From Microcystis viridis FACHB-1342 (lineage in GTDB: Bacteria; Cyanobacteriota; Cyanobacteriia; Cyanobacteriales; Microcystaceae), in the NCBI RefSeq assembly GCF_014698335.1, contig NZ_JACJSV010000031.1, forward strand, positions 1-54,149: 54,149 nt of DNA, given 5' to 3'. The translations under genes and the position numbers were made by a program. The notes beneath the pieces were generated by a model. The model was given only the letters and a program-made list of their open reading frames with translations. It did no database searches and was not told where the DNA came from. Shown piece after piece: positions 7,194 through 45,868 of this stretch. Within the stretch, counting starts at the first letter, position 1. Every line of letters begins with the position of its first letter.

Positions 7194-9914
7194 ATGACCT
7201 CGGAACTATCGAAGCAATACGATCCCAAGATCACAGAAACGAAATGGCAGCAATATTGGGAAAATCAAGAAATATTTACAGCAAACCCCGAAAAAGGCGG
7301 CGAAACCTACTGTATAGTTATCCCTCCTCCCAATGTTACCGGTAGTCTCCACATGGGTCACGCTTTCGAGAGTGCCTTGATTGATACACTTGTTCGCTAC
7401 AAACGCATGACCGGCAAAAATACCCTCTGGCTGCCCGGAACAGATCACGCTAGTATTGCAGTACAAGCTATACTCGATCGCCAATTAAAAGCCGAAAAAA
7501 CCGACCGTTATCAACTAGGAAGGGAAAAATTCCTCGAACGCGCTTGGCAATGGAAAGAGGAGTCAGGTAGTACCATTGTTAATCAACTGCGACGCTTGGG
7601 GGTATCCGTCGATTGGACGCGGGAACGTTTCACCATGGATGAGGGACTTTCCCATGCTGTCCGTACTGCTTTTATCAAACTCTATGAGGACGGATTAATC
7701 TATCGCGGTCAATACTTAGTTAACTGGTGTCCCGAATCCCGGTCGGCCGTTTCCGATTTAGAGGTGGAAAACAAGGATATTGAGGGAAATCTCTGGTATT
7801 TTCGCTATCCTCTCAGCGATGGTAGTGGTTATCTTCAAGTAGCCACCACAAGGCCCGAAACCATGCTCGGTGATACTGGTGTCGCTGTCAACCCGCAAGA
7901 CCCCCGTTATCGTCATTTAATCGGCAAAACCGTCACTTTACCGATAATGGGGCGAGAAATCCCGATTATTGCCGATGAATTAGTGGATCCCCAATTCGGT
8001 ACTGGTTGCGTCAAAGTTACGCCGGCCCACGATCCCAAGGATTTTGAGATGGGTAAACGCCATAATTTAGCCTTTATTAATATCATGAATTTAGACGGCA
8101 GTTTAAACGAAAATGCCGGAATATTCGCGGGTCAAGATCGTTTTGTTGCCCGCAAAAATGTCGTTAAAAAACTCGATGAAGACGGTTTTTTAGTTAAGAT
8201 TGAAGCCTATCGCCATAGCGTCCCCTATAGCGATCGAGGTAAAGTTCCCGTGGAACCCCTTTTATCTACCCAATGGTTCGTTAAAATTGAACCTTTAGCC
8301 ACAAAAGCTTTAACCTGTTTAGATCAGGAAAACTCGCCCCGTTTTGTGCCAGAAAGATGGACAAAAGTTTATCGCGATTGGTTAGTTAAACTCAAAGATT
8401 GGTGTATTTCTCGACAACTATGGTGGGGTCATCAAATTCCCGCTTGGTATATTATCAGTGAAACCAATAACGAAATTACTAACCATACTCCCTTCGTTGT
8501 TGCCTGGGATGAAACCTCCGCTTTAGCCAAGGCCAAACAAGAGTATGGAGAGGATATAATTATTCAACAAGACCCCGATGTTTTAGATACTTGGTTTTCC
8601 TCGGGATTGTGGCCATTTTCGACTATGGGATGGCCAGAAAAAACCCTTGATCTAGACACTTATTATCCCACCACAACCCTCGTCACTGGTTTTGATATTA
8701 TCTTTTTCTGGGTGGCTAGAATGACGATGATGGCGGGCTATTTTACGCGACAAATGCCTTTTAAAGATGTCTATATTCACGGTTTAGTTAGGGATGAAAA
8801 CGGCAAAAAGATGTCTAAATCTGCCAATAACGGCATCGATCCCCTAATTTTAATTGATAAATATGGAACCGATGCTTTACGATATACCTTAATTCGAGAA
8901 GTGGCAGGAGCAGGACAGGATATCAGTCTGCAATATAACCGTAAAACCGATGAATCGGAATCCGTAGAAGCTGCCCGAAATTTTGCCAATAAAATTTGGA
9001 ATGCTTCCCGTTTTGTGATGATGAATCTGGAGGGAAAAACCCCAGAAGAATTGGGTGAACCAGTTTTAGAAAATTTAGAATTAGCCGATCGCTGGATTTT
9101 ATCTCGTTATCATCAAACAGTACAAAAAACTAGAGATTATCTAGAAAATTATGGCATGGGGGAAGCGGCAAAAGGTCTATACGAATTTATCTGGCGCGAT
9201 TTCTGTGATTGGTATATCGAGTTAGTGAAAACTCGTTTATGGAAGGATAAAGAATCGGTTTCCTGTGCTACGGCCCGGCAAACTTTGGCTTTTATCTTGG
9301 CAGGAACATTAAAATTATTACATCCCTTTATGCCCCATATTACCGAGGAAATTTGGCATCATTTAACCCAAGAAAATCAGCAAGTTTTGGCTTTAGAAAC
9401 CTATCCAATAGCCGATAGTTCTCTGATCGATCTAGACTTAGAAAATACTTTTGAGTTATTAATAGAAAGTATTCGGGTGTTGCGTAATTTGCGGGCCGAA
9501 GCGGGGATTAAACCGGGAGCAACGATCACGGCAATTTTACAGACAGAAAACAGCCAAGAATTAGCTATTTTGCAACGCGGACAAGTGTACTTAAAAGACT
9601 TGGCCAAGATCGAAAACTTAATTTTGACGGCCAAATTAACCGAGGAAGTCAATCAAGCGATCGCTGGTGTTGTCGCTACGGTAGAAATCCTCATTCCCCT
9701 GTCCGGATTGGTTGATATATCGGTATTGGCCGGGAAATTAGCGAAAAATTTAGCTAAAGTAGAAGGGGAAATTAAGAGTTTGAGCGATCGCCTGAATAAA
9801 CCTAGCTTTGTCGAAAAAGCTCCAGAAGCTTTAATCCAAAAAACGAAGCAAGCTTTAGCAGAGTCCGAAAAACAAGCCCAAATTCTCCAAGAACGCTTAA
9901 AACGTCTGCAGTAG
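7194..9914 (+). CDS. valS: Valyl-tRNA synthetase
   Basis: Class I aminoacyl-tRNA synthetase charging tRNA-Val, cytoplasmic, 906 residues as usual for the bacterial enzyme. The HIGH motif appears as [11 protein letters not shown] (near residue 48), the [13 protein letters not shown] block follows, and the CP1 editing domain includes [11 protein letters not shown] near 220. [12 protein letters not shown] near 541 is the KMSKS loop. The last ~65 residues form the Val-specific C-terminal coiled coil ([15 protein letters not shown]...). [12 protein letters not shown] block also fits the family. The ATG at 7194 fits the usual N-terminus ([11 protein letters not shown]). The gene stands alone. Confidence 0.97.
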
Positions 9915-10526
9915 TTCCTTTGTACTATCTAAGTCCAGTGGGCTAGAGCAAAGCTACTGCGATCGAGATTATCCCTTAATCCATTGACTTAGTTGTTCAA
10001 GTAGTTGAAGTTAAAGGAGAGGGGCTAACCTAGGGATGACTTTGGGGAACTTAAGCATCTCATAAACTTGCTCCTCTTAACTCCCTATCTAACTCGGACT
10101 CCTTGTCCAGCAAGTCTTTCAGGAGTTTTCTGCACCACTGGGTCAATTAAGTTAGCAATTTCAAATTCCGGCTCAATAACAATAAAGCTAACCTTGACTC
10201 GCTGCATCTACGACCAAAACCTTATTTTTTTCTGTCACATTTCTAAATAAACAATCAAAATGATGATCAACAAGGATACAGTCCTTTCTGGACAACAATT
10301 AAATATTTGTTCAGCGATTTGATTGAATAATTTTTCCTTTACAAAAATACAAGAATTACTATAAAGATTTAGATAAACAAGAAAAAATATAAAGTCTTAT
10401 GGAGATTATTCAAGAATTATCTCAAAAGTCAACAATTGATGAGATTCTGGCCAGATAATGGCGATGGAGGGGTGAATCAACCTGATCCGAAAAAGAGATT
10501 GTTGTCGAGAGTCGGAGGGAAAAGCA
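9915..10526. other. Intergenic region without a convincing gene
   Basis: The only protein-like stretch is on the minus strand at about 10250-10096, reading roughly KNKVLVVDAASQVKVSFIV and ending before a stop. It lacks a start and a family I recognise, so it may be a gene fragment. No tRNA or terminator is evident. Confidence 0.4.
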
Positions 10527-10676
10527 ATGAATATCAAGGATACATTACACAATTTTGTCCAGTACCTAACAGAGGCTTTCGCTCGCATTTTTAGTCCCAA
10601 CAATGATGAATATCCCGATGTGGGGATGCAGCCTTTTGATTCTGAACCTTACCATGCTTCCAAGGGTAATTCTTAA
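10527..10676 (+). CDS. Small hypothetical protein (49 residues)
   Basis: The ORF encodes 49 residues beginning MNIKDTLHNFVQYLTEAFAR. A strong ribosome-binding site (GGAGGG at 10513-10518) is placed 8 bases before the ATG. The first half is a predicted amphipathic helix and the second half is acidic and Pro-rich (NNDEYPDVGMQPFDSEP). No domain is recognised. The good ribosome-binding site and balanced amino-acid composition argue for a real gene; function is unknown. Its location between valS and the RTX gene gives no clue. Confidence 0.6.
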   Translation: MNIKDTLHNFVQYLTEAFARIFSPNNDEYPDVGMQPFDSEPYHASKGNS

Positions 10677-11046
10677 CTATAGCGATCCTAAATTATTTTT
10701 GCTCTTCGGTTTGTGTTATGCAATGGACGGGGGTTATAAAGGATGAAACCCTTATAGAAAAAGACATTACCGCAATTTTTGTCAATTGTTTGCGATCTGG
10801 AGCGAACTAATCAATTAAATCTCTTGCCAGATAAGAATTTAGTCGATTTATACCCCCCTATCGAACCATACCAAGTAACGAAAAACCAGATACTGTAAGA
10901 TCAAACTACTTCACTTTGAGTGTCCACAATCGGTCAGTCGAGTCTGACCCCAATCGGGGGCTTAGACCATTTTTTGGATGGCCCCATTTGGCTTTCAGGA
11001 CTGGCACCGGCGCGTCAACGCAAACAACAAATTTGGAGAAAAGATT

Positions 11047-13824
11047 ATGCCTACGCGAACCATCAATGGCAACAACAGCGGCAATACGATCAACGTCCTC
11101 GACGACACAGGCGGCTATAAGGTCACCGGGTCGGGATTCACCATCTCCCCTGGGGGGTCACCTCCATTCACCGACACCGATCTGGTGATCAACACCTTGG
11201 ACACCACCGGCGGCACCGACGTCGTCAATCTGTCCGGCTTGACCACAAACTCCGGTGTCAGCTTCACCAGCATCACCATCAACGGCGGCGGCGGCACCCA
11301 GAACGTTACCGGCAGCGGCTTCGCCGAGACGATCAGCACTGGTATTAGCAACGACGCCATCAATGCCGGCGCGGGCGATGACACTCTCATAGGCGGCGAC
11401 GGTGCCGATAGCATGGATGGGGGCGATGGCAGCGACACCTACAACATCGCTGGCTCACAGCTGGGTGGCGACACCTTCAACGACACGGGCGCTAGTGGCA
11501 GCGACACGATCAACGTCACCGGCGCCCTCTCCACTTTCCTGTCCTTCGGCGTCGCGGGGACGAACTACACCCTTATCAACGGGTCTCTGCCGACCTCAGC
11601 CGGCGCGACCTATCAGGGCATCGAGACCTTCAAAGGCAACAATTTTGCCATCAACGGCACCAACAACGGCAGCGACATCTTCGACCTCTCCGGGTTCAGC
11701 AGCGCCACCGGGGTGGGCGCGATCAACACCTTTAATGCCACCGGCGGCACCGACTACGTCAACGTCTCCACTGCGGATGCTGGGGTGACCATCAACGGCG
11801 GCAGCGGCACCCAGATCGTCGTCGGCAGCAGCTTCGCCGATACGATCAGCACTGGTAGCGGCAACGACAGCATCAATGCCGGCGCGGGCAATGACACCAT
11901 CACCGGCGGCGACGGTGCCGATAGCATGGACGGGGGCGACGGCGACGACACCTTCAACATCGCTGGCTTACAGCTGGGCGGCGACACTATCATCGGCGGC
12001 ACCGGCAACGACACGATCAGGAACACGGGTGCTGGTGCGCTGAGCATATCTTCATTCGGCCCGTCGGGCAGCGGCACCACCGCCACCTATTCCAGCATCG
12101 AGACCCTGGACGGCAACAATCAGGCCATCAACGGCAGCAACGCCACCAACGAGGTGGTCAACCTAAGCCTGATCGGCCAGCTGCTGAACGTCACCGGCGT
12201 CAGCATGGCTGACGGTGCCGACACGGTTTGGACGGCGGCGAGCCACAGCGGCCAAGTCACCGTCTATGACGGCGGCAACGGTACTGACACCATCAATCTG
12301 GTGTTGACTCCCCTGCAGCTTGGGGCTTTCAGTGTCGGCGATATCGGGTCGCTCAACACTTACGTTGCTGCTCCCACGGGTAAGACCCTCGCGCCCAGTG
12401 GAGGCACCATCAATATCGCGAGCCTCCAGTTCAAGGCTAAAAACTTCGAGTCGGCCACAGCCAACGTGCTAGATGATGGCCAGGTTTACAACATCACCGA
12501 TTGCTTGATCCCGATCAACAATGTGGTGGTGATGACCACGGCTAGTTATACGGATGTAGCCGGGAAAAGTAGCCTCATTGTGGGCACCGCAGCGAACAAC
12601 ACGATTCAGGCTGGTGATGGACAAGACTTGGTGTTTGGCCTTGCCGGAAACGACTCCATTACCGGAGGTGCGGATGAAGACTGCCTATTTGGCGGTGCGG
12701 GAGACGATACCTTCTTCGCCAACCTGAGCGAGGCTGAGTTTGACAACCTGCAAGGCGGGTCGGGGACAGACACTTTACAACGCACCACCACCGGCGGCCA
12801 GGGCAATCTGGTGTTGAATCAATTCTTGGCCACCAACGGCATCGAGCGGGTCAACCTGGATGCGGGTGGCCAAAATCGCGGGATTGATGGCAACGCGAAT
12901 GGCAATGTGCTTGATTTCAGTGCCACCACCTTTCTCTCTAACGGTGTCAATGGTTTAGGCGGGGACGACACCATTACTGCCACCAACGCCTCGGCTCGCA
13001 CCTATAATGGCGATGCCGGCAATGACACCCTGAACGGTGGTACACAGAATGATATCCTGAACGGTGGTGCCGACAATGACACCATCTCCGGTGGCGGCGG
13101 CAACGACACCATCAAGGGGGGGGTTGGTGCTGACAGTCTGAACGGCGGCGATAACGACGATACCTTCCTCGCCAACCTGAACGAGGCTGAGTTTGACAAC
13201 CTGCAAGGCGGGGATGGTATCGACACCTTGCAGCGAACCACAGATGGCGGCCAGGGCAATCTGGTGCTGAATCAATTCTTGGCCACCAACGGCATCGAGC
13301 GGGTCAACCTGGATGCGGGTGGCCAAAATCGCGGGATTGATGGCAACGCGAATGGCAATGTGCTTGATTTCAGTGCCACCACCTTTCTCTCTAACGGTGT
13401 CAATGGTTTAGGCGGGAACGACACCATTACTGCCACCAACGCCTCGGCTCGCACCTATAATGGCGATGCCGGCAATGACACCCTGAACGGTGGTACACAG
13501 AATGATATCCTGAACGGTGGTGCCGACAATGACACTCTGGTTGGCGGCCTCGGCAATGACTCCCTAACTGGGGGGATCGGCAATGACACGTTCCGCTTCG
13601 CAAGTGGTTTCGGTAACGATGTCATCACTGACTTCAGTGGGGGTGGTGCTGACAAGATTGACTTGTCTGCCTTTGGTCTCGGCGGCATCGGGGCTTTGAC
13701 GATTACTGTCGGCCCTGGTGCTGGTAACGACATCATTACGAGTCCTTCTACTCCAGGCTTCGGTCAGATTACCCTTGTAGGATTTGCGGGCACGTTAACT
13801 GCTAGTGACTTCATCTTTACTTGA
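11047..13824 (+). CDS. RTX-type calcium-binding repeat protein, probably secreted by a type I system
   Basis: A 925-residue protein counted from the ATG at 11047, chosen because GGAGAA lies 7 bases upstream; an in-frame ATG at 10978 has no such site. It has no N-terminal signal peptide. It is built from Gly/Asp-rich beta-roll blocks with GGxGxDxxx nonapeptides (for example NAGAGDDTLIGGDGADSMDG near residue 110, and again near 280, 520, 660 and 830), separated by longer beta-helix-like spacers. A 151-residue unit is duplicated near the end. The final ~80 residues (NDVITDFSGGGADKIDLSAF ... GFAGTLTASDFIFT) look like the uncleaved C-terminal type I secretion signal of serralysin-like RTX proteins. 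No catalytic domain is seen, so a surface-layer or adhesion role is an inference. The gene is strongly GC-rich and I find no HIP1 site in it, unlike its neighbours. No dedicated exporter is adjacent. Confidence 0.85.
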   Translation: MPTRTINGNNSGNTINVLDDTGGYKVTGSGFTISPGGSPPFTDTDLVINTLDTTGGTDVVNLSGLTTNSGVSFTSITINGGGGTQNVTGSGFAETISTGISNDAINAGAGDDTLIGGDGADSMDGGDGSDTYNIAGSQLGGDTFNDTGASGSDTINVTGALSTFLSFGVAGTNYTLINGSLPTSAGATYQGIETFKGNNFAINGTNNGSDIFDLSGFSSATGVGAINTFNATGGTDYVNVSTADAGVTINGGSGTQIVVGSSFADTISTGSGNDSINAGAGNDTITGGDGADSMDGGDGDDTFNIAGLQLGGDTIIGGTGNDTIRNTGAGALSISSFGPSGSGTTATYSSIETLDGNNQAINGSNATNEVVNLSLIGQLLNVTGVSMADGADTVWTAASHSGQVTVYDGGNGTDTINLVLTPLQLGAFSVGDIGSLNTYVAAPTGKTLAPSGGTINIASLQFKAKNFESATANVLDDGQVYNITDCLIPINNVVVMTTASYTDVAGKSSLIVGTAANNTIQAGDGQDLVFGLAGNDSITGGADEDCLFGGAGDDTFFANLSEAEFDNLQGGSGTDTLQRTTTGGQGNLVLNQFLATNGIERVNLDAGGQNRGIDGNANGNVLDFSATTFLSNGVNGLGGDDTITATNASARTYNGDAGNDTLNGGTQNDILNGGADNDTISGGGGNDTIKGGVGADSLNGGDNDDTFLANLNEAEFDNLQGGDGIDTLQRTTDGGQGNLVLNQFLATNGIERVNLDAGGQNRGIDGNANGNVLDFSATTFLSNGVNGLGGNDTITATNASARTYNGDAGNDTLNGGTQNDILNGGADNDTLVGGLGNDSLTGGIGNDTFRFASGFGNDVITDFSGGGADKIDLSAFGLGGIGALTITVGPGAGNDIITSPSTPGFGQITLVGFAGTLTASDFIFT
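12712..13528 (+). repeat. Tandem duplication of 453 bp inside the RTX gene
   Basis: Bases ~12712-13075 and ~13165-13528 are nearly identical, offset by 453 bases (151 codons). The longest shared part covers the NQFLATNGIERVNLDAGGQ region through NGGTQNDILNGGADNDT. Confidence 0.9.
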
Positions 13825-39130: not shown

Positions 39131-39337
39131 ATGCTCAATACCGTTCCCGCAATTGTCAAAGAAGGCCGGATCGAACTCCTCGAATCCGTGCCGATTCCAG
39201 AGGGTACTAGGGTTTTAGTCACCCTCATCCCGGAGGAGACAAACTCGGATTTCTGGCAAAAAGTCAGCGAAACTGCACTGGCTAAGATTTGGGATAATCT
39301 GGAAGACGACATCTATGAACGATTACTCGAAGCTTGA
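39131..39337 (+). CDS. DUF104-type antitoxin
   Basis: 68 residues. MLNTVPAIVKEGRIELLESV and VPIPEGTRVLVTLIPEE are typical of the DUF104/AF2212-like family, small beta-barrel proteins that act as antitoxins. The start codon has AGGTTAACC just upstream. It overlaps the following PemK-like gene by 23 bases, as expected for a TA pair. Located right after clpX, a reasonable site for transcription read-through. Confidence 0.8.
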   Translation: MLNTVPAIVKEGRIELLESVPIPEGTRVLVTLIPEETNSDFWQKVSETALAKIWDNLEDDIYERLLEA

Positions 39338-39623
39338 AATCGTTCTCGTTCGTTATCCTTTTTCAGATTTAGCGGACGCTAAAATCAGACCGGTTATCAT
39401 TGTTAGTTCTCCTCACCGTTCACGGGATGTTTTTCTGGTTCCCCTTACCAGTCGCATCAATAATTTACTGGAGGGCGAGTTTTTGCTGGAAGATTGGGAG
39501 AACGAGGGATTGAATGTACCGACGGCCGTTAAGCGGGGGATATACACAATCCAACAAGATTTACTCCTTAAGAGAATCGGACGACTATCGGACACAGATG
39601 CGCGACGTTGGCAAAACTCTTGA
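39315..39623 (+). CDS. PemK/MazF-family toxin
   Basis: 102 residues. EIVLVRYPFSDLADAKIRPV with VIIVSSPHRSRDVFLVPLTS matches the MazF/PemK fold, where the RP(V/A)(L/I)(V/I) motif and the following loop carry the catalytic residues. VPTAVKRGIYTIQQDLL is the second conserved block. MazF enzymes are sequence-specific mRNA endoribonucleases. Overlaps the antitoxin gene. Confidence 0.88.
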   Translation: MNDYSKLEIVLVRYPFSDLADAKIRPVIIVSSPHRSRDVFLVPLTSRINNLLEGEFLLEDWENEGLNVPTAVKRGIYTIQQDLLLKRIGRLSDTDARRWQNS

Positions 39624-39838
39624 CGAGGATGGCTAAATAACCTGAGTTTGGGATAAGCTGAAACCCTTATGCTATCCTAGCCAGTCAACTTGATTCTTTT
39701 GCGGAAGTCATAACAAAATCGCCCTGACCCGAACAGGTGTTAAGTAAATCCCGACTACCAAATCCTTGTCAGATTAAGTATTGCCTATTGCAGGCAAGCT
39801 TGGCAATGGTTTGGGATGCAAACCTTGAACTCTTTCTC

Positions 39839-41590
39839 TCATTCACAGTCAGCAAGGCAGTCTAGTTTCAATTTCGCTAGGATTTCTTTTTTTGACTTGT
39901 CGGCTTCAGCTAAGGCTTTCCCCAGTAAATCTAAAACTTCTTTTGCTTCTTTAACTTCTTCTAATTCAGGACTATGTTTCATAGCATCTTTAAGATCAAT
40001 GACGGCTACAGAGAGAAGTCCACATATTTTGGGAGCGTATTCTTTTTCAACGTATTTTTCTTGTATTCTATCTATCCCTTTTTTATACTCTTGCAGTGCC
40101 AGCTCATAACGTTTACTGCACATTAATGCTAACGATAGATCAAACTGAAGGGAAAGTTGTATCGGGTCTTCCGTTTCCAGTAAAGATAAAGCTTGAACAA
40201 AAAACCTAGCCGCTTCACTATAGTTAGCTTGCCTGTATTCGCACCAACCCACTAAATCAAAGTAAAATTCATCTGTCCTTTGTTTTGCTTCTTCTATAAT
40301 TTTCTGGTATTCATCCTCTGCTTTTTTTCGATTTCCAAGGAGATAATAGGTTTCAGCAATTCCCTTATGTACCCAGAGATTGCTTGAATTAATCTGGAGA
40401 GCCGAGGTATAAGCTTGTTGCGCTTCTTTGATTCTTCCGAGTTTAGATAAAGCTAATCCTTGAAGATAAAAAATTTGCTCGTATTGGGAATCGCGTTGAA
40501 TAGCTTTATCAAGAACTTTAACCGTCTGTTCATACTCAGCAATATCGACTAAAATTTCTGCTTGTAGTCCCAAGAGAAAAGTATAGTCAGGCTTGGGAAG
40601 TTTTAAGGCATGATCTAGGACCTGTAAAGCTTCGGGATAGCGATCTAGTTCAGCTAAAGCGATCGCTCTGTTTTCCATGATTGTTGCGTTCTGAGGCTCA
40701 AACTTGAGGGCTTCATCAAGAACATCGAGCGCTTCTTGGTATCGTTCTAGCTGACATAAATTATCCCCTAAATCTTTATATACCCCATATAGTGTTGGCT
40801 CTCTTTTCACAGCCTCTTGTAGATTTTGTACTGCTTTTTCGTATTCCCCCATTTCAGACCAAGTTTTGCCTAATTCAGCATAAGCCCAAGCTAGACTAGG
40901 ATCAAGGGTAATAGCTTGTTGTAGGCTTTTAATTGCCTCTTCGTTACATCCTAGATTTCGTAATGCCATACCTTTCCAGCCTAAAGCCAAGGCAGCGTTT
41001 GGGTTTAATTCCAAAGCTTTATTTAGCACTTCTAGGGCTTCAGTATAATTTCTTGACCGGCAGTATTGAGAGCCGATCCTGCTTAATCCTTCTGCTAATA
41101 TGGCTAAAGTTGGAGTATCTTGCGGTTTATTTTGTTCGGCTTGTTTGAAAAAGTCGTAAGCTTTATCATAATCTTTCGATTCCAAGAATATTATCCCTTG
41201 ATTGAGCAACGCTCCAATATTATTAGGCTTTAGCTCTATAACTTGTTCAAAGCATGACAGTGCTTCATTATTCCGTCCTAATTGTCGGAGTATTTCTCCT
41301 TTAAGAAGTAGAAAATCAGCATTATGAGTTAGGGGTGTGACATCATGCTTCAGAGCGTTCAAGGCAGTCTCGACAATCCCCAAAGCATCTTCGTATTGTT
41401 GAGCTTTTAACAGATCTAATGCTAAATTTTGGTATAAGGGAAGGATATTTTGTATTTTCCCCTTAAGAACCCGTCCTAAAGATTGCGCTGCTTCAGTCAG
41501 GAACGCGGGGGCAGGTTTATTAAAAGAGCTATAGGAAAGAATATCCTTGGATAGTTCTTCCAGTTTTTTTTGGCTATCTGTTGTTTCCAT
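39839..41590 (-). CDS. Large TPR-repeat protein, last gene of the metallopeptidase operon
   Basis: 583 residues, almost wholly tetratricopeptide repeats. At least ten 34-residue units with the W/L..G.A......Y..A...F..A....P pattern are visible (for example ALGWKGMALRNLGCNEEAIK, then ALLNQGIIFLESKDYDKAYD). No catalytic domain, signal peptide or membrane segment is evident. It begins 19 bases after the stop of the preceding minus-strand gene and is probably cotranscribed with the three genes upstream. TPR arrays bind protein partners; here it may be a scaffold or sensor for the peptidase pair, which is inference. Confidence 0.85.
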   Translation of the reverse strand: METTDSQKKLEELSKDILSYSSFNKPAPAFLTEAAQSLGRVLKGKIQNILPLYQNLALDLLKAQQYEDALGIVETALNALKHDVTPLTHNADFLLLKGEILRQLGRNNEALSCFEQVIELKPNNIGALLNQGIIFLESKDYDKAYDFFKQAEQNKPQDTPTLAILAEGLSRIGSQYCRSRNYTEALEVLNKALELNPNAALALGWKGMALRNLGCNEEAIKSLQQAITLDPSLAWAYAELGKTWSEMGEYEKAVQNLQEAVKREPTLYGVYKDLGDNLCQLERYQEALDVLDEALKFEPQNATIMENRAIALAELDRYPEALQVLDHALKLPKPDYTFLLGLQAEILVDIAEYEQTVKVLDKAIQRDSQYEQIFYLQGLALSKLGRIKEAQQAYTSALQINSSNLWVHKGIAETYYLLGNRKKAEDEYQKIIEEAKQRTDEFYFDLVGWCEYRQANYSEAARFFVQALSLLETEDPIQLSLQFDLSLALMCSKRYELALQEYKKGIDRIQEKYVEKEYAPKICGLLSVAVIDLKDAMKHSPELEEVKEAKEVLDLLGKALAEADKSKKEILAKLKLDCLADCE

Positions 41591-41609
41591 TTTTTGGTTC
41601 TCCTAGTGA

Positions 41610-43052
41610 TTACTTATTTTTTTTTATAGAAGACATGGACGAATGCTGCTTTGCGGATTTTTGCGACTCTCTTTGTGTTTTAGAAGTCAGTCCTTTCCAT
41701 AAAGAAATAGCTGTCTCCGCAATTATGTCTATATCTTGATGATTTTTCAGTCGTTCATTCCAAGCTCCATTGAGAATATGGCGTAGGTCTTGCCCTATGT
41801 TTAAATTAGGATCTTTAATTTTATTCTGCCAATCATCACGAATGTTTATCCATTCTCCATGAGGATAGAGGACAAAGGTAACATCTTTAAAAGTATTCCA
41901 TACCTGTTCAACCTTTTCTTTGATGGTTTGGTCATCCGACAAACAGGAAATAGATGAACCAGTCTGCTGAATATATTCCTGCCAAGCATTTTCTAGCTGC
42001 TTAATAATTTCGCTATAAGGGTCTAGACCTTTTCCAAGAGCGTGTTCATTCATCCTGTTTAACATGGTCAGGATAACTGAGTATCTTTCCAGTGCAGAGG
42101 GCATCTGTTTAGGTCCTTGAATATCTAAGCGAAGTAAGATAACAGCACAAGCATAAGCCGGTCCAAGAATAAAGGTAGCAAAAGCATCAACGACAAGATG
42201 TCGATTTTTGGGTTCAGCGCCGTCAATATATTGTCTTAAAGCTGGAATCTTGCGCACTAAAATATATCCATATTCGCTGATAACCAAAGGCAATGTCCAA
42301 ATTGTCCATTCAGGGAATCCCACACGAATCAGACCAGCCGGAGAATTTTCTCGGGCTTCATGACGGGCAGGAATTGTTAAAGAATATTTAATAGGACCTT
42401 TCAATATCGGATATTCTGTTATTTGAGATATCAGATTATCAGCAAAATTACAAATTTCTGAGTCTAGTCCAGCCCCTCGCATTGCTAAACCACTTAGAAA
42501 TTCAATATACTCGGTAAAGATTTTTTGACTGTCTTCATCTATTTGTCTGACCTCATCCCAAAGCGAGTTGATAGACTCTCCGTTATTCTCCTGTTGTCTT
42601 TCTAATTCGCCCTGAGCCGTGTATATCCTTTCAAGTAATGTCTCTATTTTCCCACTCACTTCTGTTTCTAGTAGCTTTTTTAACCAAATTTCTGTTTTTT
42701 TACTTTGCTCTTCAAGACTCTTTATTTGGTCTTTTATTTCTATTAAACTTGTATTGAGTTCTTGCACTTTAGATTCAACTGTATTCGCCTGTGTTCTAGA
42801 AGTATTATATGGCTCTATTAGTTTATCAGGGAAGGTTATTGTTTGACAAAAATCTTGAAGAAAATTTTTGATAACACCACAATTCCTAAGTATTTCGCTC
42901 GGCAACAAATAGATTACTTCTATAGAACTTTGCAATGTCTCTATATTCTGTTGTTGTTCTTGAAAAAATTTAAAGGTTTTTAATCCACCTTGAATTCCTT
43001 CAAGATTTCTTTTTAAGGTGTCCAAATGTATTTGCAAAATTAGATTTCTCAT
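41610..43052 (-). CDS. Inactive paralogue of the HEFGH metallopeptidase-like protein
   Basis: 480 residues from the ATG at 43052, chosen because AAGAAGG lies 6 bases upstream and the previous gene stops 10 bases before. Residues 1-175 are mostly coiled coil (KVQELNTSLIEIKDQIKSLE). Residues 185-400 align with residues 90-300 of the next gene upstream: FPEWTIWTLPLV against FPEFTIWNLPIV, and DAFATFILGPAYACAVILLR against DIFATYSLGPAFAFTSILLK. Where the paralogue has HEFGH this protein has SEYGY (259-263), and the glutamate position (E213 there) is a histidine (H285). All three presumed zinc ligands are therefore lost, so it is likely a non-catalytic partner or regulator. The family is unknown to me. 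Confidence 0.75.
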   Translation of the reverse strand: MRNLILQIHLDTLKRNLEGIQGGLKTFKFFQEQQQNIETLQSSIEVIYLLPSEILRNCGVIKNFLQDFCQTITFPDKLIEPYNTSRTQANTVESKVQELNTSLIEIKDQIKSLEEQSKKTEIWLKKLLETEVSGKIETLLERIYTAQGELERQQENNGESINSLWDEVRQIDEDSQKIFTEYIEFLSGLAMRGAGLDSEICNFADNLISQITEYPILKGPIKYSLTIPARHEARENSPAGLIRVGFPEWTIWTLPLVISEYGYILVRKIPALRQYIDGAEPKNRHLVVDAFATFILGPAYACAVILLRLDIQGPKQMPSALERYSVILTMLNRMNEHALGKGLDPYSEIIKQLENAWQEYIQQTGSSISCLSDDQTIKEKVEQVWNTFKDVTFVLYPHGEWINIRDDWQNKIKDPNLNIGQDLRHILNGAWNERLKNHQDIDIIAETAISLWKGLTSKTQRESQKSAKQHSSMSSIKKNK

Positions 43053-43062
43053 AATAGCCTTC

Positions 43063-44280
43063 TTAGAGTTGTCCCTCATTAATAATTTTATGACATAAAT
43101 TAATTGCCTTTTCACTGATATCGTCTTGGGGTTTAGAATCGAGCCAGCGACATATACAAGCAGCATTTAAGACATCAATCAATTGATAATCATAATAATT
43201 AATCTCATTTTGTTCACTGAGGCAAAGGTAATTAGACAAACTTAAAGCGCGAAGCCAGTCCTCTTTAGTATAGCGAACATTAGAGACTTCCTGCATAAGA
43301 GTACTATACATTTTATCTAAGCGATCACTGAGCAACTTAGTTGTTTTTTCCTCTCTTTTTGCCTTTAGTCCAGAAATAGTAATGGTTGATTCTTCCAATT
43401 TATTCAAACTGACGTGCCAGCTTTCTCTGAGTTGCCTTATAAGATGTTGGTAATTAATGCCTTGGTTTTCTCCGGGCAATGTGTTCATTTTTTCTAGGGT
43501 TTTAAGAATGATATAAACGCGCTTGACATTACTAGGATGGATCTCTCCGTCTTGGCTTTGATTAGGGTTGAATTTTAGGAGGATACTGGTGAATGCAAAA
43601 GCCGGACCTAAACTATAGGTGGCAAATATGTCAGCTAGGTGTTCATAGAGATAATCTTCTTCCTTTTTCTTTTCATCTTCAGTTGAATTTTGTTTCCCCT
43701 CCTGTTCTATGATCTCTTTAATAAAATCTCTCTGCCCTTTTCTATCTTTGATTCTTTTTCTTAACTCCCTACCAACGAAATGTCCAAACTCATGACCAAC
43801 TATTGGTAAGTTCCAAATTGTAAATTCGGGAAAACGTAAACGGATAATTTCAGTCATGTCGGCGAAAAAATCACCTTCGCCTAAAATAGTCATTCGCGTC
43901 CACGGGATGTCGCTTCTGGAACTCAGATCAGCTAATATTTTATCTGCTATTGTGCAGACACCATTATCCAACTGAGCTTGGCGTATTAAAGCTCCTCCCA
44001 AACAAGCTAGAAATTCCTCGAAAATCGCGTCACATTCCTTTCGGTCTGCCTGTAAATCTTTCCAGACAGTGTTTAGTGCATCATCTGGAACAGAATTAGC
44101 CAATTTTAACGCAATTTCTAGTCTTCTTTCCCATTTGTTAAGTAGATTGTGGAAACGGCTGTCAATGGCTTGACGAAGCTCACTGTGAATCAAACTGTTA
44201 GAAAGTAGAATTCTTCGGGTTCGTCTTAGATCGTCTTGAAGTCCCTTGATTTGATCGATTAAATTTGAACGCTCATCCAT
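43063..44280 (-). CDS. Putative zinc metallopeptidase (HEFGH)
   Basis: 405 residues. A helical N-terminus (1-90) is followed by a conserved core with an HExxH-type zinc motif H163-E164-F-G-H167 in LPIVGHEFGHFVGREL, and a candidate third ligand E213 in LYEHLADIFATYSLGPAF. The order HExxH ... E-x2-A-D/N-x-F-A resembles gluzincin peptidases, such as the ImmA/IrrE (M78) and M48 types, but the rest of the sequence does not match a family I know. Residues 175-210 are a charged insert. There is no signal peptide or membrane segment, so it is cytoplasmic, perhaps recruited by the membrane-anchored first gene. It lies 62 bases after that gene. Peptidase activity is inferred from the motif. Confidence 0.75.
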   Translation of the reverse strand: MDERSNLIDQIKGLQDDLRRTRRILLSNSLIHSELRQAIDSRFHNLLNKWERRLEIALKLANSVPDDALNTVWKDLQADRKECDAIFEEFLACLGGALIRQAQLDNGVCTIADKILADLSSRSDIPWTRMTILGEGDFFADMTEIIRLRFPEFTIWNLPIVGHEFGHFVGRELRKRIKDRKGQRDFIKEIIEQEGKQNSTEDEKKKEEDYLYEHLADIFATYSLGPAFAFTSILLKFNPNQSQDGEIHPSNVKRVYIILKTLEKMNTLPGENQGINYQHLIRQLRESWHVSLNKLEESTITISGLKAKREEKTTKLLSDRLDKMYSTLMQEVSNVRYTKEDWLRALSLSNYLCLSEQNEINYYDYQLIDVLNAACICRWLDSKPQDDISEKAINLCHKIINEGQL

Positions 44281-44342
44281 GATTTCTCTGTTTAAGGTGG
44301 ATAGTTTTGCTTTTATCTTGTTGCCAAAATATTCTTTGCAAC

Positions 44343-45458
44343 TTAGGTTAAAGTATCGACAATTATGCCAACTCCTCTCACTAAACTAATTCCTCCTCTT
44401 GAGTCGGTGTAATCTATTCCACGAAAAATCACGAACAACAGCAGCAACCAATATAAACCAATAATTACTTGTAGTAAAGTTGGATCTGGCCAAAAGTGTA
44501 GCAATAAAGAGACAGAGAATGTTACTATGACTAAGCCCCCAACAATTTTCATCTCTTTGGTAAAGTTATTTTTTAGTTCCTTTAACTCATTACTACCGTC
44601 AATTAGGCTTTGTTCGTTTAAGTTTTGTAACAATTTTTCGTCTCTGCGGCTGCGAACATCTTCAACACCAAACGCCCAAGCTATGCTTTGTTCCAGAGGA
44701 GACCCAGATTCTTTAAATTTATCCCAGATTTCTTTGGCGGTGTTCTTGAGATTATCGATAAAGCTTCCGAGATTCGCCTCACCTAACAGTCGGAGCAGAG
44801 AATTGAAGGCTTCTTTTATAAACTGTACCCCCTGTTTAATAAGTCGTCCCACTTCGGATAATTGGTTAAGTATGTCAGAAGCAAGTCGAGTTAGCAGATC
44901 GCCTATGTTGAGCCTGTCTGTGTTTCTTGATAACTCATCAAAAATTGAAGTGGCGACGTTTGCTGCTTCATCAACAAAAGTGTTTAGGGCTTCCTCTGAA
45001 TCCTTTCGGAAAATTTCACGGGTATTTCTGTTGTCACTTGTACTTGAATCCTCAGCAAAATTTGCTAAAGTTTGTTTGATGTGTTGGGTTGTCTCCTCTA
45101 GTTGTCGAAGGGTTTGTCGCAAAATCTCTGGATCTTGTACTTCCCCTGTTTCCCCAAGTGCCTGTCCCGATGCAATTAATACGTTGGCAACCTGAATGTC
45201 ATTTAGGACACTGACTAGGGTTCCTTGAACTGCTGGTTCCTTATCGGCTTTTTCAGATTCTAGTTCAGAGAACATGAAATTACGGTAGGTTGTCCCTTCA
45301 TTGCCGTAGTCCTGAGCCGCTCGTTCTAGGTTATCAATGGCAAACTGACGCATCTCTTCTGGTTCATTGAAAAGCGCCTGTAGTTGCTGTCCCGCTTGGA
45401 CAACAGATTCCGCACGTTCTAGGTATTGATTAAGTTCGTCTTCATAAAAGGCTACCAT
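44343..45458 (-). CDS. Coiled-coil protein with two C-terminal membrane segments, first gene of the metallopeptidase operon
   Basis: 371 residues. Residues 1-300 are almost all helical, with heptad-like stretches (QTLRQLEETTQHIKQTL; DLLTRLASDILNQLSEV) and an amphipathic region FNSLLRLLGEANLGSFIDNL. Near the C-terminus two hydrophobic segments, VGGLVIVTFSVSLLLHF and LQVIIGLYWLLLLFVIF, are separated by a short WPDP turn, so both ends face the same side, probably the cytoplasm. I recognise no family. Membrane anchoring of the operon's products is the likely role. Three 14-15 bp direct repeats lie immediately upstream of its start. Confidence 0.7.
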   Translation of the reverse strand: MVAFYEDELNQYLERAESVVQAGQQLQALFNEPEEMRQFAIDNLERAAQDYGNEGTTYRNFMFSELESEKADKEPAVQGTLVSVLNDIQVANVLIASGQALGETGEVQDPEILRQTLRQLEETTQHIKQTLANFAEDSSTSDNRNTREIFRKDSEEALNTFVDEAANVATSIFDELSRNTDRLNIGDLLTRLASDILNQLSEVGRLIKQGVQFIKEAFNSLLRLLGEANLGSFIDNLKNTAKEIWDKFKESGSPLEQSIAWAFGVEDVRSRRDEKLLQNLNEQSLIDGSNELKELKNNFTKEMKIVGGLVIVTFSVSLLLHFWPDPTLLQVIIGLYWLLLLFVIFRGIDYTDSRGGISLVRGVGIIVDTLT

Positions 45459-45868
45459 ACAAATTTGATAAATTACAGCACAATTAATAAATTACAGCAC
45501 AATTAAATTAAAGCACAATATTCTCTTTTGTTTTGTAAAGATTAGCAACACAACCTTCTTATGCCTTGAGCGCATTTTCTTAACAATCATGAAAAGTAAG
45601 TATAGCAACGGTTTCGGCAATTTCCTTAACAAAGCGTCAGTTCGGGTTAAGGCGACCTTGCCATGACTTCCACCACGAAAGAAACGGGTTTTCAGGCTAG
45701 ATTAGCATAAGGGTTTCAGGGGTGCATCTGTTGTTTTGCAAAAACATCTGGAAAAACTTCTGGGCATTTCACGGTTAACCTACAAGAAACGTATAATCAT
45801 CTCATAAAACAGCTTTATCCCCCTACCAGACTACCCATCCGACCCCTAATCGCTAATCGTTAACTATC
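45459..45868. promoter_or_regulatory. Divergent promoter region with iterated AATTACAGCACAATT repeats
   Basis: AATTACAGCACAATT occurs at 45471-45485 and 45490-45504, and a variant at 45506-45519, just ahead of the coiled-coil gene on the minus strand. They could be operator sites. The rest of the 410 bp holds no gene. Confidence 0.55.

Follow-up and report, generated by a model that had tools for sequence, protein, structure and literature searches.

The 54,149-nucleotide stretch of Microcystis viridis FACHB-1342 DNA analysed here (contig NZ_JACJSV010000031.1; 'the window' in what follows) contains, between positions 39839 and 45458, four closely spaced genes, two of which encode related proteins, one with the metallopeptidase-like motif HEFGH and one in which this motif reads SEYGY. 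The question raised by the locus is whether the two proteins are a peptidase and a non-catalytic partner, and what they might do together with the tetratricopeptide repeat (TPR) protein encoded beside them. A preliminary description, made from the letters alone, had proposed a membrane-linked protease switch consisting of an active and an inactive metallopeptidase-like protein. We find the active-type gene, its degenerate paralogue and the TPR gene in the same order in three phyla, an arrangement that points to a protease switch not described before; the active/pseudo-peptidase pair of the earlier interpretation stands, and the membrane link is weak. The genes, in operon order, are:

44343..45458, minus strand: orphan protein with two transmembrane (TM) segments, 371 residues; heads the operon and is a candidate for substrate or effector
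43063..44280, minus strand: predicted active gluzincin-type metallopeptidase, 405 residues; HEFGH at 163-167, E213-H-L-A-D217, H248-P249-x4-R254
41610..43052, minus strand: degenerate paralogue (putative pseudopeptidase), 480 residues; SEYGY in place of HEFGH, His for the distal Glu, MP for HP
39839..41590, minus strand: TPR protein, 583 residues; PF07719, with a C-terminal region common to the other two loci described below

The open reading frame (ORF) coordinates bear out four minus-strand genes with spacers of 62, 10 and 19 bases, taking 43052 as the start of the third gene; an alternative longer ORF of this gene, from 43166, overlaps the HEFGH gene and is less likely to be used, because homology to the corresponding Blastococcus protein starts at residue 1 of the 480-residue form. 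The two HEFGH-type proteins were correctly described as paralogues (BLASTP E 2e-25, 25% identity), and the FPE(F/W)TIW and FAT..LGPA blocks that they were said to have in common are visible in their alignment. The two TM segments of the first product correspond to TM-like segments at residues 302-350, and the fourth product is certainly a TPR protein (PF07719, E 7e-57). Two features are additional to the preliminary description: the H248-P249-x4-R254 motif of the active protein, which is M-P-x4-R in the paralogue, and the borders of a genomic island around the operon.

The trio of genes in three phyla

Both of the other loci came from a scan of a genome collection with the paralogue pair, which returned two relatives in 145 stretches, one in a metagenome-assembled genome (MAG) of the Burkholderiales and one in a Blastococcus MAG, each with the ordered trio of active-type gene, pseudo-copy and TPR gene:

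Burkholderiales MAG (L030): active 7707-8873, pseudo-copy 8888-10273, TPR 10270-13395; junctions of 14 and -4 bases, the TPR start being the first in-frame ATG, which overlaps the pseudo-copy stop
Blastococcus MAG (L031): active 7448-8626, pseudo-copy 8619-10151, TPR 10174-13188; junctions of -8 and 22 bases

In the aligned site columns, the window active protein has H163, E164, H167, E213, D217, H248, P249 and R254, and the corresponding residues of the paralogue are S, E, Y, H, D, M, P and R, as the claimed changes of HEFGH to SEYGY and of the distal Glu to His require. HExxH, the distal Glu and HPx4R are kept in all three trio actives, and the second His, the distal Glu and the His of the HPx4R segment (the 'plug' His) are lost in all three pseudo-copies, where they are replaced by different residues; the HExxH region has become SEYGY, HDLGQ or HEFGR, the distal Glu H, I or T, and the plug His M, T or Q. 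Asp217 and Arg254 are retained in all six proteins, as expected for a fold that is kept without catalysis. The pattern HExxH...ExxxD...HPx4R, composed after the proteins had been seen, never arose when the three active proteins were shuffled (0 of 20,000 shuffles), and H163, E164, H167, E213, D217, G225, A227, H248, P249 and R254 are invariant in an alignment of ten active-type rows (10/10), seven of which are just 15-19% identical to the window protein. The earlier reading of an active protein and a pseudo-peptidase is thus strengthened, both forms standing side by side with a TPR gene in three phyla and each pseudo-copy having lost its ligands in its own way. We argue that the pseudo-copy is probably a working non-catalytic subunit rather than a gene in decay, because the ligand losses differ while the reading frame and the fold residues are retained.

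Within a set of 19 sequences, the actives are mutually best matches in BLASTP (window against Burkholderiales, E 1e-47; against Blastococcus, 2e-38) and the best match of the window pseudo-copy is that of Blastococcus (1e-31). The window and Blastococcus pseudo-copies match over nearly their full length (E 7e-33), and the window and Burkholderiales pseudo-copies match in pairwise comparison with E 1e-25. A tree of 13 rows places the actives and the pseudo-copies on opposite sides of one branch (support 90/88; 100% of 200 bootstrap trees). These results lend moderate support to a duplication into active and pseudo-copy that would predate the split of the three loci. Weighing against so early a duplication, the window pseudo-copy matches the Burkholderiales pseudo-copy (3e-24) no better than it does the window active (4e-24) in the 19-sequence set, and the Burkholderiales pseudo-copy scores 91 bits against the window active and 96 and 92 bits against the other pseudo-copies, a near tie. 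Moreover, shuffling the labels 500 times gave 47 results as low as the grouping observed in the tree, which with few rows does not exceed chance labelling, and the grouping branch lies below the program's star, with long branches flagged.

The third gene of the trio is, on the evidence of its sequence, more than a chance repeat protein, because the last 125 residues of the window TPR protein alone match both other TPR proteins (pairwise E 8e-12 for Burkholderiales and 3e-9 for Blastococcus); the whole proteins match with E 1e-35 and 3e-19, respectively (BLASTP). A hydropathy scan of the three actives, the window TPR protein and the pseudo-copies found no TM-like segment in the actives, the TPR protein and two of the three pseudo-copies.

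Profile searches of two cyanobacterial samples (386 and 301), of the Blastococcus phylum (346 genomes) and of the Burkholderiales phylum (349 genomes) turned up no further trio; genomes known beforehand are included in these counts, the two cyanobacterial samples share at least some members, and the MAG sequences were absent from the profile used for the 386. The number of loci is a minimum, the collection scan having relied on two short peptides. When a single protein was used as the query, matches appeared in three of 291 genomes of the order, namely the window's own, a distant relative (G275) and an ordinary M48 protein, and a whole-collection scan with peptides that proved unconserved gave none in 40 stretches. 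The match in G217 (L005; E 8e-4) was excluded as a relative, being an ordinary M48 protein, and the weak matches in G1119 and G311 span only the helical N-terminal part. The window protein has no close relatives in the plasmids or phages searched, the Burkholderiales active and pseudo-copy and the N-terminal part of the G275 relative have no close plasmid relatives, and none was found in the viral contigs scanned.

Comparison with known peptidases, defence systems and Argonaute operons

Searches of Pfam, NCBIfam, PADLOC and PHROGs assign neither paralogue to a family, giving weak and partial matches at most, and the HEFGH protein has no Pfam or NCBIfam match at E<=1. With the M48 family (PF01435) it has in common HExxH, a distal zinc Glu on the following helix, and HPx4R, a recognised M48 signature described as the active-site plug in BepA (PMC7950410). 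The PF01435 profile, however, matches neither the window active at E<=1 nor, at E<=0.1, the active of either MAG, and the G275 relative reaches E 0.049 only, below the cut-off. Alignment with hhalign to four M48 proteins (including L005, from G217; L043 was left out) gave 51.9% over 64 columns confined to the motif region, and 17% with the profile of the wider family. The predicted structure of the catalytic part, made with six sequences (predicted local distance difference test, pLDDT, 74), is all-helical, with HExxH on helix 158-179, E213 and D217 on helix 201-224, and HP just before a third. Judged by its predicted site, the HEFGH protein is M48-like; we do not file it in M48 because the M48 profile fails, the profile comparison is confined to the motif, and no metallopeptidase was found among the listed fold matches.

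Several described systems resemble the trio in part. BepA is an M48 protease with a TPR domain that acts in outer-membrane protein quality control (PMC7950410); there the TPR lies on the protease chain, in the periplasm, whereas in the window it is a separate gene and a pseudo-partner is present, and in the hydropathy scan the window active and TPR proteins lack hydrophobic segments of TM or signal type. Mitochondrial processing peptidase (MPP) and the bacterial M16B proteins combine an active subunit with a homologous subunit lacking ligands, encoded in bacteria by a two-gene operon (PMC11266112). The same pairing of genes, an active one with a homologue devoid of zinc ligands, is seen at all three trio loci, although the families are unrelated (HExxH here, HxxEH there) and the trio adds a TPR gene and a variable neighbour. 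In the nuclease-protease pairs described from bacterial immunity, a protease activates its neighbour, and canu loci include TPR domains (PMC12799240); the activation logic, likened here by description, is the one that we propose below, but those systems use trypsin- or caspase-like proteases and nucleases.

A further such system is Lit (U49), the cell death peptidase of E. coli prophage e14 (L053 3196-4089), in which HExxH, EREAD (ExxAD) and HPx4R follow in the same order as in the HEFGH protein, and which, in contrast to the trio, is a single gene. Lit cleaves EF-Tu. The comparison of Lit with the HEFGH profile, made with a single Lit sequence, is not significant (hhalign 0.4-1.6%). Among the PADLOC models, the HEFGH protein matches capP at no better than E 0.023, the pseudo-copy matches LmuB (E 7e-5 over 112 residues before the peptidase-like part) and DruC (0.017), the TPR protein matches TPR and other repeat models, and the two-TM protein none; the other four trio paralogues have no PADLOC match at E<=0.05. 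Zincin-like metallopeptidases, some of them inactive, have been noted in other conflict systems (PMC7159879, PMC8195603), and a predicted M48 gene is reported from a functional E. coli defence island (PMC12255303), which hints at proteases of this kind moving together with genes for defence.

A profile match on an Aphanizomenonaceae plasmid led to five plasmid records with related operons (L012 8665-13573, L013 4161-9164, L014 4258-9152, L015 4266-9116 and L016 4200-9089), all of which end in a PD-(D/E)XK nuclease gene, an Argonaute gene, a small gene and a metallopeptidase-like gene, most of them annotated as hypothetical. The last gene, a single gene of the active type, carries HExxH, the distal Glu and HPx4R, and aligns with the trio actives over the site, the GPA block and HPx4R (hhalign 97.9%, pairwise E 3e-13; TPR control, 0.1%). 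The five Argonautes match one another in all ten pairs (BLASTP E 0 to 2e-38), the nucleases in nine of ten pairs at E<=0.01 and the small genes in four of ten. Their family is indicated by PF02171 (E 1e-12) and 7r8f (E 1e-172) for the Rhizobium protein and by the PADLOC model pAgo_II for that of Runella; the Spirosoma Argonaute has no Pfam match. A regulator or sigma factor gene is annotated upstream in four of the five operons, and none is listed in the cyanobacterial one.

The structure 7r8f is that of PliAgo, and RslAgo of the same paper (PMC9360449) comes from Runella slithyformis; the operons are of the PliAgo/PnyAgo type, in which the Argonaute is guided by DNA and targets RNA. Passages of that paper name a nuclease, a regulator and a sigma factor only, and no word of its main text begins with 'metallo'. 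The metallopeptidase is the homologous element: in these operons no pseudo-copy or TPR gene is annotated, and a prokaryotic Argonaute (pAgo), a nuclease and a small gene stand there instead, whereas the four window operon proteins have no pAgo or PD-(D/E)XK family among the matches shown. Genes annotated as multiubiquitin, ThiF and DUF6527 flank two of the five Argonaute operons (L013 204-2617, L015 9429-11608), and a ThiF-like gene, assigned by eye, lies beside another relative (L039 9569-11894), near which no Argonaute was seen. The G275 relative (L004 1027-2934) is fused to a C-terminal dCTP-deaminase/dUTPase-like domain (PF22769, E 7e-30) and lies in a region rich in transposases, as identified by eye.

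The neighbouring gene and the genomic island

Of the four-gene neighbourhood on which the preliminary description relied, the active, pseudo and TPR genes stay together among homologues and the two-TM gene does not. No relative of the two-TM protein occurs in the loci fetched, including the other two trio loci, and 290 other genomes of the order hold no convincing one; the proposal of a membrane-linked switch is weak for this reason. The one weak match in those genomes (E 0.009, L007) is to an ORF that looks ferritin-type by eye and was judged unrelated. The one nuclease among the families shown for the four operon proteins is a weak match of the two-TM protein to BstXI endonuclease (E 0.049). 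Several Pfam and PHROGs matches obtained with the two-TM protein and the pseudo-copy (VG15, Vinculin, tape measure, Med4) were set aside as looking like coiled-coil chance.

At the Burkholderiales locus, a matrixin/astacin-like gene (L030 6678-7688; PF00413, E 1.4e-6), with no TM-like segment in its product, lies 18 bases upstream of the active gene. Facing the Blastococcus trio on the opposite strand (L031 13216-16588) are genes for a three-TM-like protein, a protein with a peptidoglycan-binding domain (PF01471, E 1e-24) and a thermolysin-like protein (PF02868, E 6e-56), the last of these protealysin-like by eye. Both other trio loci therefore have an additional metalloprotease gene, matrixin-like in one and thermolysin-like in the other, and we take the pattern of a variable metalloprotease or membrane neighbour at the three loci as a lead, not a rule.

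The window operon is the sole content of an island whose limits, and the repeats near them, are:

39636..45860: genomic island, 6225 bp, four genes only; its flanks form a junction in relatives
39658..39734, plus strand: dispersed repeat, left copy, inverted relative to the right one; 76-81% identity to other copies in the genome
45640..45719, minus strand: dispersed repeat, right inverted copy

Of 12 genomes of the genus covered by a DNA search, the window's own is the only one with the operon; in 10 of the other 11 the two flanks are near each other, the remaining one (G257) giving repeat matches only and no flank, and two genomes that could be read across the join have six bases in place of the 6225. 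The G+C content is 38.5% in the island and 43.8% in the rest of the window. The repeat, of about 80-110 bases, has more copies elsewhere in the window genome and in the genus. Its two copies at the island were rejected as transposon ends; they lie 22 and 141 bases inside the borders and no target duplication is seen by eye, and for these reasons we claim no mechanism of mobilisation. In four genomes (G095, G230, G588 and G279) the match to the upstream flank stops at the start (39316) of a MazF-like gene, which shows the site to be variable. This PemK/MazF-like gene (39315-39623; PF02452, E 4e-8) lies close to the left border of the island. The operon is preceded by genes that by eye resemble those for trigger factor, ClpP and ClpX.

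A proposed proteolytic complex and its alternatives

From the gene order, the paralogy, the retention and loss of motifs and the island, we would give about an even chance to the reading that the three conserved genes encode one cytosolic proteolytic complex acting on swappable neighbours; the complex itself, the roles of its parts, its substrate and its trigger are what we infer. The HEFGH protein would supply catalysis as the zinc subunit, and the HPx4R segment may plug its M48-like site. The degenerate paralogue, keeping the fold but not the metal, would be required as a partner, shaping the active subunit, blocking it or holding it in position, by analogy with the MPP and M16B pairs, and the TPR protein would serve as a receptor or scaffold recruiting the trigger or the substrate, by analogy with BepA. 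On triggering, the complex would cleave one or a few specific proteins, the likeliest being the product of the exchangeable neighbour (the two-TM protein in the window, the matrixin-like protein in Burkholderiales), a mode of activation for which the nuclease-protease pairs offer a precedent. A role in conflict with mobile elements would be likely in this reading; for it, and for the stress or defence function suggested in the preliminary description, the support is indirect and comes from the island, the relatives in Argonaute operons and, for defence, the site pattern in common with Lit.

Several observations count against this reading. The trio is known from three loci only, two of them on MAG contigs. 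Their neighbours differ, and we therefore name no substrate. The thermolysin-like (M4) gene at the Blastococcus locus is convergent, some 2 kb off, and may be unrelated. Residues 286-311 of the window pseudo-copy form a hydrophobic stretch. No metallopeptidase appears, by title, among the listed fold matches of the catalytic-part model, itself of moderate confidence, and PADLOC yields no system model for the operon, its matches being weak or partial or, for TPR, generic.

The probabilities of the proposed complex and of its alternatives overlap, because the same complex could serve in a Lit-like role or in housekeeping. In the Lit-like alternative, which we consider rather unlikely, a phage would free the active subunit from the pseudo-partner and the TPR sensor, a host protein would be cleaved and growth would stop, the two-TM protein being an accessory or second killer. 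Such abortive infection would suit the three motifs of Lit, the location of the operon in an island, and the HEFGH relatives that occur in Argonaute operons and in one fusion with a dCTP-deaminase-like domain; it is not favoured by the non-significant Lit comparison, by the lack of a convincing PADLOC family, or by the surroundings of the other two trio loci, which by eye look like ordinary chromosomal genes. Those same surroundings, together with BepA as an M48 protease with a TPR domain in quality control (PMC7950410), speak for a housekeeping module of peptide processing or quality control, with no part in conflict, in which the TPR and pseudo subunits would feed the protease; the rarity of the operon and its island location speak against it, and we hold it as probable as the Lit-like scheme.

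Two further alternatives concern the paralogues themselves. Both could be non-catalytic scaffolds, the HEFGH protein binding zinc or a peptide without cleaving it, as its catalysis, which is a prediction, and the all-helical model, with no metallopeptidase fold match, would allow; we regard this as distinctly improbable, the ligand and catalytic positions and HPx4R being invariant in every active-type row, including the seven most divergent. It is very improbable that the SEYGY gene arose by a lineage-specific duplication and is now a pseudogene on its way out. Its lost ligands and the rarity of the operon could be so explained, but the gene has an open frame of 480 residues, its product matches the Blastococcus pseudo-copy near full length and also that of Burkholderiales, and the pseudo-copies branch apart from the actives; the Burkholderiales and Blastococcus loci largely refute decay.

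Pairs of active and pseudo-metallopeptidases are already known, and the new element is the conserved set with a TPR gene, a protease, pseudoprotease and TPR combination of which we found no description in the titles and abstract openings of the open-access literature. A broader possibility, which we put forward tentatively and consider less likely than the complex alone, is that the operon represents an undescribed, horizontally moved proteolytic switch, in which an M48-like protease, an ancient obligate pseudoprotease and a TPR sensor would unleash swappable effectors (a two-TM membrane protein or a second metalloprotease), and whose wider family would arm RNA-targeting Argonaute operons and, in one case, a dCTP-deaminase-like protein, as an unrecognised protease arm of prokaryotic immunity. 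If cleavage of the neighbour proves true, the trio would be a new modular protease switch, and the homologous last gene of the Argonaute operons would gain a testable role.

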